A stretch of DNA of 38,073 bases from Clostridiales bacterium (lineage in GTDB: Bacteria > Bacillota > Clostridia > Christensenellales > Aristaeellaceae). Location: positions 1 to 38,073 of the forward strand of contig SVGO01000011.1 in assembly GCA_015056305.1 (NCBI GenBank), written 5' to 3'. Positions 453-33,605 of the stretch are shown piece by piece. The notes beneath the pieces are model-generated. The model did not search any database, was not told where the DNA came from, and saw only the letters and a program-made list of their open reading frames with translations. A program made the translations under genes and the position numbers. Position 1 is the first letter of the stretch. Each line of letters opens with the position of its first letter.

Positions 453-1736
453 ATGATCGACAACATGAAAATGTATACCCAGCTCGGCATCTCCGAGCAG
501 GTTTATCGCTATGGCGAGGACATCCTTTCCTCCCTGCGCGCGCGCTTTGACGAGATCGACCAGGTCGCCGAGTACAATCAGGCGAAGGTCATCGCCGCCA
601 TGCAGAAAAACCGCGTGAACGCCGGCTGCTTCGCCGGCACCACCGGCTACGGCTACAACGACGTGGGCCGTGACACGCTCGAGCGCGTGTATGCCGACTG
701 CTTCCATACCGAGGCGGCGCTCGTCCGCCCGAACATCGTCTGCGGCACGCATGCGCTTGCCGTCGCGCTGAGCGCGAACCTGCGCCCCGGCGACGAGCTC
801 CTCTCCCCCGTCGGCCGCCCGTATGACACGCTCGAAGAGGTCATCGGCATCCGTCCGAGCGCCTGCTCGCTGGCGGAATACGGCGTGACCTACGACGAGG
901 TCGCGCTCCTGCCGGACGGCACTATCGACTACGAGGGCGTGCGCGCGAAGATCAAGCCGCAGACGAAGATGTGCACCATCCAGCGCTCCAAGGGCTACGC
1001 CACCCGCCCGACGCTCTCCGTCACGGAGATCGGCAAGCTGATCGCCTTCATCAAGGGCATCCGCGCCGACATCATCTGCATGGTCGACAACTGCTACGGC
1101 GAGTTCGTGGATGTCATCGAGCCCAGCGATCTCGGCGCGGACATGATCGTCGGCTCCCTGATCAAGAATCCAGGCGGCGGCCTGGCGCCCATCGGCGGCT
1201 ACATCTGCGGCACGCAGGCGTGCGTCGATCGCTGCGCGTATCGTCTCTCCGCGCCGGGTCTGGGCCAGGAGGTCGGCGCAAATCTGGGCCTGATGACCAG
1301 CCTGTATCAGGGCTTCTTCCTCGCGCCGACGGTCGTCTCCGGCGCGCTCAAGGGCGCGATCTTCGCCGCAAACATCTACGAGAAGCTCGGCTTCCGCTGC
1401 GTGCCCAACGCCTCCGGGCCGCGCCACGACATCATTCAGGCCGTCGAGCTGGGCAGCGAAGCCGCGATGTGCGCCTTCTGCGAGGGCATTCAGGCTGCTG
1501 CGCCGGTGGACAGCTATGTGACCCCGGTGCCGTGGGACATGCCTGGCTACGACAATCAGGTCATCATGGCCGCGGGCGCGTTCATTCAGGGCAGCTCCAT
1601 CGAGCTCTCCGCCGACGGCCCGATCCGCGAGCCCTACGCTGTCTATTTCCAGGGCGGCCTCACCTGGGTGCACGCCAAGCTCGGCATCCTCATGAGCCTG
1701 CAGAAGCTCGTGGATGCGGGGATTGTGACGCTGTAA
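453..1736 (+). CDS. Methionine gamma-lyase family / aluminium-resistance-like PLP protein (YnbB-like)
   Basis: 427 aa; PLP-lyase features (GTHALAVAL, MVDNCYGEFVD, GSLIKNPGGGLAPIGGYICG) typical of PF06838-type proteins. Confidence 0.88.
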   Translation: MIDNMKMYTQLGISEQVYRYGEDILSSLRARFDEIDQVAEYNQAKVIAAMQKNRVNAGCFAGTTGYGYNDVGRDTLERVYADCFHTEAALVRPNIVCGTHALAVALSANLRPGDELLSPVGRPYDTLEEVIGIRPSACSLAEYGVTYDEVALLPDGTIDYEGVRAKIKPQTKMCTIQRSKGYATRPTLSVTEIGKLIAFIKGIRADIICMVDNCYGEFVDVIEPSDLGADMIVGSLIKNPGGGLAPIGGYICGTQACVDRCAYRLSAPGLGQEVGANLGLMTSLYQGFFLAPTVVSGALKGAIFAANIYEKLGFRCVPNASGPRHDIIQAVELGSEAAMCAFCEGIQAAAPVDSYVTPVPWDMPGYDNQVIMAAGAFIQGSSIELSADGPIREPYAVYFQGGLTWVHAKLGILMSLQKLVDAGIVTL

Positions 1737-1825
1737 GGGGGACGTTAGGGCTGCCGCCCTAAAACCCGCCTGGGGACCAGTCCCCAGACCCCTTCTTCGC
1801 TTCGCGTTGTTTGAAGAAGCCTATA
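1737..1825 (-). repeat. Modular palindromic intergenic repeat, locus 1 inverse arm
   Basis: Minus-strand CGCGAAGCGAAGAAGGGGTCTGGGGACTGGTCCCCAGGCGGGTTTTAGGGCGGCAGCCCTAACGTCCCCC; same scaffold as 15723-15800, 21350-21428, 33303-33380. Confidence 0.85.
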
Positions 1826-1834
1826 TATGAATTC

Positions 1835-1866
1835 GGACGCAGGAAATATCCTGCGTCCATTTTTAT
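1835..1866 (+). terminator. Rho-independent terminator
   Basis: GGACGCAGG-aaatat-CCTGCGTCC followed by ATTTTTATT. Confidence 0.85.
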
Positions 1867-1879
1867 TGCTTTCTCTCTT

Positions 1880-2056
1880 AAAGCCGCCGCGAAGCGGAAA
1901 AGGGAGTTTGAGGGATGAAATCCCTCAAGCAGGTCTTCGGGGACCGAAGCCTGCCGCGCCCAGTGGGCGAAACAGGCAGGCGGAGCGTCGGGAATCGCAA
2001 GGAGCAGCAGAATGCTGCGACTATGCGAGTTCCCCGGATGGCAGCCCTATCGTTCC
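1880..2056 (+). repeat. Long form of the modular palindromic repeat, locus 1 outward arm
   Basis: AAGCCGCCGCGAAGCGGAAAAGGGAGTTTGAGGGATGAAATCCCTCAAGCAGGTCTTCGGGGACCGAAGCCTGCCGCGCCCAGTGGGCG...GCAGCCCTATCGTTCC; near full-length homolog of the reverse complement of 15487-15663. Confidence 0.88.
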
Positions 2057-2057
2057 T

Positions 2058-2822
2058 TTAAATCGTCATCCCGCCGTCCACGACGATGTTCGCGCCGGTC
2101 ATGAAGCCGATGCCCTGCGCCGCGGCAAAGACGATGGCTTTGGCGACCTCGTCGCTTGTGCCAAGACGGCCCAGCGGCTGACGGGCAACGAAGTTCTGGA
2201 GCGCCTGCACGGGATCGGCGGTCTTGTCGATGCGCCCCTGCAGGGACGGAGAGAGGACTGTACCGGGACTCACGCAGTTGATGCGGATACCTTCGCCGAC
2301 GTATTCCGCCGCCATGGACTGCGACAGGGCGATCATCGCGCCCTTGGTCGCGCTGTAAATCGCGCGATTCTTCACGCCCTTGATCGCCACGACCGAGGCG
2401 ACATTGACGATGCTGCCGCGCGTCTTGCGCAGATAGGGCATGGCCAGACGGCTGAGCATGAACACGCTCTTGACATTCGTGTTCATCGAGCGGTCCCAGT
2501 CGTCCATATCGGCTGTCTCCACGCTGCCGTCCACAACAATGCCGGCAGCATTCACCAGCACGTCGATCCTGCCGAATCTTTCCACGGTCTCGCCGATGAT
2601 CGCCTCGCAGCCCGCCATCGTGCCCACGTCCGCGCGGACGGCGATCACGCTGCCGCCTGCGGCTTCGATCTCCTCTCGCGCGCTTTCGCAGGAATCGGAC
2701 AGGGAATTGACGACGACATTCGCACCATAGGCGGCAAAGAGCTTCGCCGCCTCGCGGCCCATGCCCGCACCGGAGCCGGTGACGATCACGGTCATATCGC
2801 TGAAATCAAACATGGATATCAT
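2058..2822 (-). CDS. SDR family NAD(P)-dependent oxidoreductase
   Basis: 254 aa; TGSGAGMGREAA Rossmann motif, NAAG, YSATKGAM catalytic YxxxK, C-terminal VVDGGMTI. Confidence 0.95.
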   Translation of the reverse strand: MISMFDFSDMTVIVTGSGAGMGREAAKLFAAYGANVVVNSLSDSCESAREEIEAAGGSVIAVRADVGTMAGCEAIIGETVERFGRIDVLVNAAGIVVDGSVETADMDDWDRSMNTNVKSVFMLSRLAMPYLRKTRGSIVNVASVVAIKGVKNRAIYSATKGAMIALSQSMAAEYVGEGIRINCVSPGTVLSPSLQGRIDKTADPVQALQNFVARQPLGRLGTSDEVAKAIVFAAAQGIGFMTGANIVVDGGMTI

Positions 2823-2877
2823 CTCCTCTTTTTTCTACGATACCATATTCCGGATGCAAAAACAAGCGGGAGAACAC

Positions 2878-3044
2878 GGGACGTTGGGGCCTCAGCCCCA
2901 AACCCCGACAAGGGACTTCGCCCCTTGACCCCATGTTCTAGGTCGCTTGCATAGTTGCGCAAGCGCTCCTTGCAGCTCCCGACGCTCCGCCTGCCTGCTT
3001 GCGTCACTGGCGGCGGCAGGCTCCAGTCTCGCGGCGGCTTGAAG
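2878..3044 (-). repeat. Modular palindromic repeat, rearranged/degenerate copy (locus 2)
   Basis: Minus strand shares GCCTGCCGCCGCCAGTG..GCAAGCAGGCAGGCGGAGCGTCGGGA..GCAAGGAGCGCTTGCGC with the long form, joined to a short-form scaffold (GGGGTCAAGGGGCGAAGTCCCTTGTCGGGGTTTGGGGC...GCCCCAACGTCCC). Confidence 0.82.
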
Positions 3045-3058
3045 CAGCATAGAAATAG

Positions 3059-3091
3059 AAAAACACCCCTGCGGAAATCCGCAGGGGTGTG
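3059..3091 (-). terminator. Rho-independent terminator of the 3105-4436 gene
   Basis: Minus strand CACCCCTGCGGATTTCCGCAGGGGTG followed by TTTTTCT. Confidence 0.88.
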
Positions 3092-3104
3092 ATGATATTA
3101 CCGA

Positions 3105-13381: not shown

Positions 13382-13439
13382 AAAAACAAAAGAAGCTCTG
13401 ATTTCTCAAAGCTTCTTTTTCTGGCGCAGAAGGAGGGAT
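13382..13439. repeat. 58-bp direct repeat, copy 1 (terminator hairpin plus tRNA-Ser 3' end)
   Basis: AAAAACAAAAGAAGCTCTGATTTCTCAAAGCTTCTTTTTCTGGCGCAGAAGGAGGGAT, identical to 13543-13600 (offset 161 bp). Confidence 0.93.
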
Positions 13440-13530
13440 CTTGCCCCTCGCTGCGGCTCGGGCTGGATCGGCTCTGACGTGCCACTGGCACGTCATTCAC
13501 TCCCGATCCGTTCAAATCCCACTTCGTCCT
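13425..13530 (-). pseudogene. Truncated tRNA-Ser 3' end fused to a structured GAGTGAA-module
   Basis: Minus strand AGGACGAAGTGGGATTTGAACGGATCGGGAGTGAATGACGTGCCAGTGGCACGTCAGAGCCGATCCAGCCCGAGCCGCAGCGAGGGGCAAGATCCCTCCTTCTGCGCCA; only the acceptor/T-arm end is tRNA-like. Confidence 0.75.
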
Positions 13531-13542
13531 AAAGAAGCTCTG

Positions 13543-13600
13543 AAAAACAAAAGAAGCTCTGATTTCTCAAAGCTTCTTTTTCTGGCGCAGAAGGAGGGAT
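13543..13600. repeat. 58-bp direct repeat, copy 2 (overlaps the intact tRNA-Ser 3' end and its terminator)
   Basis: Identical to 13382-13439. Confidence 0.93.
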
Positions 13601-13674
13601 TTGAACCCTCGCGCCGCTTCACGCAGCCTACTCCCTTAGCAGGGGAGCCCCTTCGGCCTCTTGGGTACTTCTGC
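13583..13674 (-). tRNA. tRNA-Ser(GCT)
   Basis: Reverse complement GCAGAAGTACCCAAGAGGCCGAAGGGGCTCCCCTGCTAAGGGAGTAGGC...GAGGGTTCAAATCCCTCCTTCTGCGCCA; long variable arm; anticodon GCT. Confidence 0.94.
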
Positions 13675-15486: not shown

Positions 15487-15663
15487 GGGTAACGTTAGGG
15501 CTGCCATCCGGGGAACTCGCATAGTCGCGCAAGCGCTCCTTGCGATTCCCGACGCTCCGCCTGCCTGCTTCCGCCACTGGCGGCGGCAGGCTTCGGTCCC
15601 CTAAAACCTGCCTGAGGGGGCATCGCCCCTCAGACTCCCTTCTCCGCTTCGCGGCGGATTCAA
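15487..15663 (-). repeat. Long form of the modular palindromic repeat, locus 3 outward arm
   Basis: Minus strand AATCCGCCGCGAAGCGGAGAAGGGAGTCTGAGGGGCGATGCCCCCTCAGGCAGGTTTTAGGGGACCGAAGCCTGCCGCCGCCAGTGGCGG...GGATGGCAGCCCTAACGTTACCC. Confidence 0.88.
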
Positions 15664-15676
15664 GAAAGATATCCGA

Positions 15677-15707
15677 AAAATGCCCCCGGCAGAGCCGGAG
15701 GCATTTT
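15677..15707. terminator. Bidirectional-looking Rho-independent terminator
   Basis: AAAATGCCcCCGGCagaGCCGGaGGCATTTT. Confidence 0.85.
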
Positions 15708-15722
15708 ATGATATAAATTCTT

Positions 15723-15800
15723 AAAGCAGATGCGAAGCGAAAATGGGGTCTGGGGAGATATCCCCAGGCGGGGTTTGGGGCCTGCGGCCCCAACGCCCCC
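15723..15800 (+). repeat. Short form of the modular palindromic repeat, locus 3 second arm
   Basis: AAAGCAGATGCGAAGCGAAAATGGGGTCTGGGGAGATATCCCCAGGCGGGGTTTGGGGCCTGCGGCCCCAACGCCCCC. Confidence 0.85.
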
Positions 15801-15811
15801 CTTCGTCCCCC

Positions 15812-21349: not shown

Positions 21350-21428
21350 CCCTAAGGGATGCGTTGGGCTGCCGCCCAAACCTGCTTGGGGACATCGCCC
21401 CCCCTTCTTCGCTTTGCGCCGTTTTACG
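21350..21428 (-). repeat. Modular palindromic repeat, short form (locus 4)
   Basis: Minus strand AAAACGGCGCAAAGCGAAGAAGGGGGGGCGATGTCCCCAAGCAGGTTTGGGCGGCAGCCCAACGCATCCC. Confidence 0.78.
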
Positions 21429-21457
21429 ATGCATTTTTAACAGCTTCAATCCTTACG

Positions 21458-21493
21458 AAAAAAACGCCGGTTTCCATCTCACGGAAGCCGGCT
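21458..21493 (-). terminator. Rho-independent terminator of the 21509-22720 gene
   Basis: Minus strand GCCGGCTTCCgtgagatGGAAACCGGC followed by TTTTTTT. Confidence 0.88.
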
Positions 21494-21508
21494 GTTTTGA
21501 TGACGCGG

Positions 21509-33291: not shown

Positions 33292-33302
33292 GGGGGGATG
33301 AT

Positions 33303-33380
33303 GGGACGTTAGGGCTGCCGCCCTAAGACCCGCCAAGGGACTTCGCCCCTTGACCCCATGCTTGCTTCGCGGCGGTTTTA
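33303..33380 (-). repeat. Short form of the modular palindromic repeat (locus 5 inverse arm)
   Basis: Minus strand ACCGCCGCGAAGCAAGCATGGGGTCAAGGGGCGAAGTCCCTTGGCGGGTCTTAGGGCGGCAGCCCTAACGTCCC. Confidence 0.85.
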
Positions 33381-33393
33381 AAATGTTTATGCA

Positions 33394-33424
33394 AAAACGC
33401 CTTCGGCTTTGCCGAAGGCGTTTT
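33394..33424. terminator. Bidirectional Rho-independent terminator
   Basis: AAAACGCCTTCGGC-ttt-GCCGAAGGCGTTTT. Confidence 0.88.
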
Positions 33425-33444
33425 ACAGTATAGATGTTTAATCC

Positions 33445-33605
33445 CGCTGCAAAGTGAAGAAGGGAGTCTGAGGGTTCGGATTCTCCGAACCGGGACAGGA
33501 GTGAATGACAGCTAAGCAGGGCTGTCAGAGCTGTCCTGAACGACGAGCGTCGAGCGAGGAGATAGAAATCCCTCAGGCAGAGGCTTGGGCGATAGCCCAA
33601 CGTCT
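33445..33605 (+). repeat. Modular palindromic repeat with GAGTGAA-module nested in its first hairpin (locus 5 outward arm)
   Basis: AAGTGAAGAAGGGAGTCTGAGGG-[~95 nt insert]-CCCTCAGGCAGAGGCTTGGGCGATAGCCCAACGTCTCC. Confidence 0.82.

Follow-up and report, generated by a model that had tools for sequence, protein, structure and literature searches.

Six sites at which repeats and terminator-like hairpins lie close together had been pointed out in a sequence-only reading of the window (the whole stretch of 38,073 nucleotides analyzed here), the first of them between convergent genes, which Pfam matches here assign to a methionine gamma-lyase family protein and a short-chain dehydrogenase. Direct reading and a covariance model (R1, with 25 copies as input) revealed an arm of approximately 86 nt common to five of the six, with its head CTTAAAACCGCCGCGAAGCG toward a terminator and its tail AACGTCCCC away from it. 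Gene calls were trained on Pfam-supported genes. The features are listed below, with R1 scores in bits; G000 denotes the window genome and G017 a close relative.

453 to 1736, plus strand: methionine gamma-lyase family gene, upstream of site 1 (Pfam Met_gamma_lyase, E = 2e-174)
1736 to 1819, minus strand: short-form left arm of site 1, with its head toward the core and its tail at the stop codon (88.1 bits)
1820 to 1873, unstranded: site 1 core, terminator hairpin GGACGCAGGAAATATCCTGCGTCC plus T-run, of a repeated core family (C69:48384, L320:12739, and G017)
1874 to 2054, plus strand: long-form right arm of site 1, its third hairpin holding Ins1 (a module of ~95 nt) (48.3 bits)
2058 to 2822, minus strand: short-chain dehydrogenase gene, convergent at site 1 (Pfam adh_short_C2, E = 2e-58)
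2875 to 3045, minus strand: site 2 single arm, with Ins1 at the head hairpin (58.4 bits)
3062 to 3092, minus strand: terminator at site 2 belonging to the Na/dicarboxylate symporter gene downstream, locus specific and kept in G017
13382 to 13582, minus strand: site 6, duplicate of the tRNA-Ser 3' end and terminator enclosing an Ins2-like hairpin module (repeat D3, 94%)
15491 to 15667, minus strand: long-form left arm of site 3, carrying Ins1 (44.3 bits)
15668 to 15716, unstranded: site 3 core, bidirectional terminator of the AAAACGCCTCCGG..CCGGAGGCGTTTT family
15717 to 15802, plus strand: site 3 right arm, short form (88.2 bits)
21355 to 21431, minus strand: site 4 single arm (47.6 bits)
21462 to 21495, minus strand: site 4 terminator of an ion-channel gene, locus specific
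33300 to 33385, minus strand: site 5 left arm, short form (82.9 bits)
33386 to 33433, unstranded: site 5 core, bidirectional terminator of the same family as the site 3 core
33434 to 33600, plus strand: long-form right arm of site 5, its second hairpin loop holding Ins2 (14.7 bits, alone below the cutoff; Ins2 copy at 33538)

The scaffold of the arm runs from the head CTTAAAACCGCCGCGAAGCGAAGAAGGG through hairpin 2 (e.g., CTGGGGATGAAATCCCCAG), the motif GGCGGGG, and hairpin 3 (e.g., TTGGGGCCTGCGGCCCCAA) to the tail CGTCCCC; it is thus a row of perfectly paired hairpins, in which the head with CGCGAAGCG is followed by hairpin 2, hairpin 3, and a tail with AACGT. Rfam at gathering cutoffs identified only tRNAs in the window, and matches between 1700 and 3100 did not rise above chance level. 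The pairs had originally been described as lying between convergent genes. With gene strands fixed by Pfam matches, this setting was confirmed for sites 1 and 5, and site 4 is also a convergent gap, but the pair at 15487 to 15800 (site 3) lies between codirectional genes, as does the arm of site 2. The stretch from 13425 to 13582 (site 6) had been read as a related module, but it has no R1 match and contains no arm. It belongs to a duplication of the tRNA-Ser 3' end and terminator (70 nt with 94% identity, in the region 13382 to 13612) that holds a different, Ins2-like module, GAGTGAATGACGTGCCAGTGGCACGTCAGAGC, placed at the T-arm position. At locus L287:165 of G017, Ins2 likewise lies beside tRNA T-arm-like sequence.

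To find copies beyond the window, as the sequence-only reading had proposed, R1 was run on 775 kb of G000, 723 kb of G017, and 400 kb of a further relative, G021. After overlaps were merged, 151 copies were identified in the G000 sample and 103 in that of G017 (254 in ~1.5 Mb of two species), with similar numbers in relatives; G021 yielded 20 copies in its 400 kb. If the sample is representative, a genome would carry approximately 500 copies by extrapolation. Among 60 relatives searched, R1 matches were present in 21 of 29 genomes of the genus, with at least 74 in many of them and none in others, whereas outside the genus they were found in only 2 of 31 genomes, both weak, and most genera of the same family were without arm matches. 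When GTDB genomes were searched by pattern, all matches were in Clostridia/Clostridiales metagenome-assembled genomes, many from animal guts. Genome G042, from the same order but outside the genus, gave 19 weak matches (best E value, 1.6e-5), which may represent a distant relative of the arm or a different G-rich repeat. At G000:C97:35601-35965, the arm is present in four tandem copies with a spacing of ~92 nt. A longer form, in which TGCGCGAAGCGC and the hairpin GAATCTCAGAGGAGCCGAAGGCGACAATTGAGATTC lie beyond the tail, was seen in 27 G000 and G017 copies (e.g., C92:29256 and L320:4549), and another repeat group, CACCTTCCCC..GGGGAAGG with GGGCGGATGATATCCGCCCCTACA, was located just outside the heads of ~18 arms (C82:2483, C97:27128, and C98:33382 of G000, among others).

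Terminators were called with a home-made finder at a distance of up to 65 nt from the arm end. In the window, seven of eight R1 matches have a terminator-like hairpin this close to the head and none has one near the tail, in agreement with the orientation first described. Across the 254 copies from both species, a terminator was present at the head of 58, at the tail of 15, and at neither end of 181; counted per region, 47 were head-only and 14 tail-only (P = 3e-5). The imbalance persisted when the window was excluded (30 head versus 7 tail terminators in G000 and 21 versus 8 in G017), and single arms had 35 head and 11 tail terminators, where ~11 of each would be expected at random position and orientation. 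Pairs were head to head in 37 cases and tail to tail in 6, with the tail-to-tail pairs far apart. The head-toward-terminator orientation thus holds beyond the window, and the proposal of a consistent architecture, as opposed to random repeat scatter, proved correct. Terminator adjacency is nevertheless a minority feature, so that of the association with terminators expected genome-wide the head-side bias was recovered, while most copies have no terminator within 65 nt; the window is an unusually clean sample.

Comparison of head-side sequences across copies revealed that two terminator cores recur with their flanks at unrelated loci, namely, the AAAACGCCTCCGG..CCGGAGGCGTTTT core of sites 3 and 5 and others and the GGACGCAGGAAATATCCTGCGTCC core of site 1 and others. 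One core family was present in 12 head-side segments and another in 8. As these two pair cores are repeated sequences, the terminator is carried by those composites. Approximately 30 further head-side terminators were each found at one locus alone, as at site 4. Recurrent cores of ~13, 37, 49, and 54 nt were identified in the 37 head-to-head pairs, and other pair cores consist of short spacers, a GGAGCGGC..GCCGCTCC hairpin, or a REP-like hairpin.

The near-identical copies of G021 are bounded at both ends by terminal inverted repeats (TIRs), TACTWTTCTCARATNAAA, giving a noncoding element of 185 to 365 bp in ~60 copies. A whole-genome search of G021 with the TIR pattern gave 119 matches, whereas the reversed control pattern gave 0. 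The two 3-bp flanks are identical in 11 of 22 complete TIR-bounded copies, where they always read TAA or TGA, and in 18 of the 22 a stop triplet (TAA/TGA) lies at the head end. In a second pass, 15 of these 18 stops were found to close an open frame 60 codons long or longer, compared with 40% of random TAA/TGA triplets in the same DNA. When TAA or TGA is duplicated, the stop codon is restored, and the insertion leaves the gene intact. Insertions in G021 are mostly without a terminator. In G000, TIRs are recognizable in a few copies only, with that at L324 flanked by TTA/TTA, and none were found in the window copies; as the window arms lack TIRs, it is the shared inner scaffold that points to their probable descent from a miniature inverted-repeat transposable element (MITE) like that of G021. 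A search of six genomes (incomplete assemblies) for the transposase found DDE_Tnp_1 (PF01609) loci without TACTWTTCTCARATNAAA ends, and DUF4096 (PF13340) was absent from the six genomes searched (incomplete assemblies). Some IS5 subgroups have a TNA target. The 3-bp duplications of G021 are of the T-N-A type and resemble in this respect the IS5/PIF-Harbinger superfamily, but this is a lead only, as no transposase or TIR match was found; canonical Harbinger elements generate 3-bp target site duplications (PMC12730594).

We consider it probable (approximately 75%) that the arms constitute a high-copy, noncoding, nonautonomous family of mosaic repeats, confined mainly to one genus of gut Clostridia, that was spread by transposition and is kept downstream of genes. 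Transposition is shown in G021 by the TIRs and 3-bp duplications and would apply by extension to the window genome, where most copies have no TIRs. Copies would then persist where insertion does the least harm, just downstream of genes. Although ~85% of the DNA is coding, the midpoints of 253 of the 254 copies fall outside called genes. Among gaps of at least 60 nt, copies are present in 55 of the 115 between convergent genes, in 129 of the 499 tandem ones, and in 2 of the 144 divergent ones, the last being avoided relative to all other gaps (184 of 614 occupied; P = 6e-17). This distribution fits tolerated insertion downstream of genes, the same argument with which Croucher et al. explained the placement of BOX, RUP, and SPRITE (PMC3049150). 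Where the tail faces a stop codon, its median distance from the stop is 6.5 nt, and it lies within 10 nt in 83 of 132 cases. A strict stop-codon rule and a strict terminator rule were both considered for the window genome and rejected, as each fails for most copies.

A comparison of 122 orthologous gaps between G000 and G017 (median protein identity, 88%) gave 30 gaps with copies, of which 22 had them in both species and 8 scored in one only; several of the latter hold diverged remnants, and a few appear truly empty. Cases of presence and absence include a G017 copy (R31) that is missing from the G000 gap and the site 4 arm, which is missing from the orthologous gap in G017. Since most positions are common to both species, mobility in the window genome is not recent. 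Within shared sites, hairpins have often changed on both strands at once, a core can be replaced by another core type (one orthologous pair), and the ~95-nt modules are variably present: the core of site 1 is almost identical in G017, but a simple hairpin stands in place of Ins1 in the right arm, and the site 2 arm of G017 is also without Ins1. In most copies inspected, Ins1 and Ins2 lie inside hairpin loops. The second hairpins exist in 104 distinct forms among 225, of which 180 are fully Watson-Crick paired. Covariation scored higher than in any of 500 shuffles, a control that takes no account of relatedness. Stem pairs are ~97% Watson-Crick, and because wobble intermediates are few, we favor replacement of whole hairpins over stepwise compensation. 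Wobble pairs carried no informative signal of strand-specific RNA selection (35 G-T versus 4 A-C in hairpin 2, ~21 of them apparently from one recurring hairpin, and 16 versus 9 in hairpin 3).

The same observations bear on a functional RNA element of 3' ends, in which 3'-UTR hairpins would act against exonucleases or readthrough and be kept by selection at each gene. The closeness of tails to facing stop codons, the pairing of stems kept through two-sided changes, the retention of arms plus terminator at orthologous sites, and the frequent position of arms between stop codon and terminator would all fit such an element, and the retained polarity and stem pairing could reflect selection for function. 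However, copies between tandem genes occur in both orientations (52 sense and 42 antisense), most single copies have no nearby terminator, and the near absence of wobble intermediates suggests replacement of hairpins as wholes. Moreover, the end turned toward the stop codon in G021 is the head and not the tail, and the repeat is absent from most genera of the same taxonomic family. A role at RNA 3' ends is plausible, but as the explanation of the family it appears unlikely.

Insertion targeted to terminator hairpins, with a transposase or retroelement recognizing the hairpin and the head placed inward, is more doubtful still. Group IIC introns have their 5' end facing an intrinsic terminator. 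An analogous mechanism would be consistent with the excess of head-side terminators, many of them 10 to 19 nt from the head, with elements on either side of the terminator (38 same-strand and 31 opposite-strand calls), and with the ~30 head-side terminators that are locus specific. Yet targeting, which the sequence-only reading had entertained, is not the rule, because 181 of 254 copies are without a terminator within 65 nt; in addition, two pair cores are repeated sequences, and the copies of G021 are located at stop codons and flanked by 3-bp duplications. Unlike group IIC introns, the arms show no ribozyme or reverse transcriptase, and no Rfam group II intron was found in the window.

The earlier suggestion of a BIME-like element was largely sustained. 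BIMEs and REP sequences of enterobacteria are intergenic hairpin units in alternating orientation, mosaic with internal motifs, whose palindromes are kept by paired mutations (PMC2817692). The arms share with them hundreds of intergenic copies, palindromic units in alternating orientation, mosaic composites of interchangeable modules with internal motifs, and maintained pairing. They differ in having an unrelated sequence, larger units with two or three hairpins, intrinsic terminators as some composite cores, no GTAG-type REP, and no RAYT association. At L061 (G000:C97:16924-17187), a broken RAYT-like Y1 transposase gene lies between copies of a separate REP-like repeat, GTAGGGGAGGGGCTCTGCTCCTCCC. 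Mobilization as a REP/REPIN by a RAYT (Y1) transposase, despite inverted hairpin units and a copy number resembling those of REPINs and BIMEs (PMC2817692), is very improbable and was rejected, as no GTAG-type foot was found beside a hairpin of the arm (alignment A1 and printed copies), the only Y1 gene found in the window genome (PF01797 search of genome and genus) is broken and lies next to another repeat, GTAGGGGAGGGG..CCCCTCCC, and Y1 distribution does not fit across the genus, with no match in element-rich G010, G011, G017, G019, G021, G025, G026, and G028 and several matches in G002, G004, G015, and G020, which have no elements.

In Streptococcus pneumoniae, BOX is a composite (boxA-boxB(n)-boxC) with optional inner modules, SPRITE is terminator-like, and BOX, RUP, and SPRITE are enriched between convergent genes and insert into one another (PMC3049150). 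The arm family is likewise modular, with optional inner modules, and enriched between convergent genes, but it occurs in another taxon, its sequence differs as far as compared (BOX by architecture only), its modules are housed in hairpin loops, and its outward-facing arms enclose terminator cores. As with bacterial MITEs (reviewed in PMC10969869), the G021 form is short and noncoding, with TIRs and target duplications; unlike in these, insertions cluster at stop codons, which the duplication restores, most copies in the window genome are without TIRs, and a parent IS was not found. On the best reading, the arms are a new mosaic MITE/BIME-like family that behaves like a BIME or BOX repeat and, by the tests made, not like a REPIN.

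For a repeat family spread in this way and kept downstream of genes, hairpins would be swapped as whole modules, with two ~95-nt modules able to sit inside hairpin loops. Head-to-head pairs would make up composites whose core is in many cases a built-in terminator, and this would explain why arms point outward from a terminator. Between stop codon and terminator, arms probably become hairpin-rich 3' UTRs, and they may supply termination. More tentatively, the family may be a transposon that uses stop codons as safe harbors and substitutes its hairpins (plus, in composites, its own terminator) for the 3' end of the host gene, with cassette exchange and nesting of the ~95-nt modules generating its diversity.

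Arm repeats could break or misjoin assemblies of these gut Clostridia. They occupy approximately half of the convergent gaps of at least 60 nt in the sampled genomes, and thus probably form many mRNA 3' ends in the genus. Three problems meet in the family: the means by which mobile repeats reach harmless sites (in this case the stop codon), the gain and relocation of terminators, and the maintenance of perfect pairing despite sequence turnover. If the tentative safe-harbor reading is true, hundreds of genes per genome would share mobile, interchangeable 3' ends.
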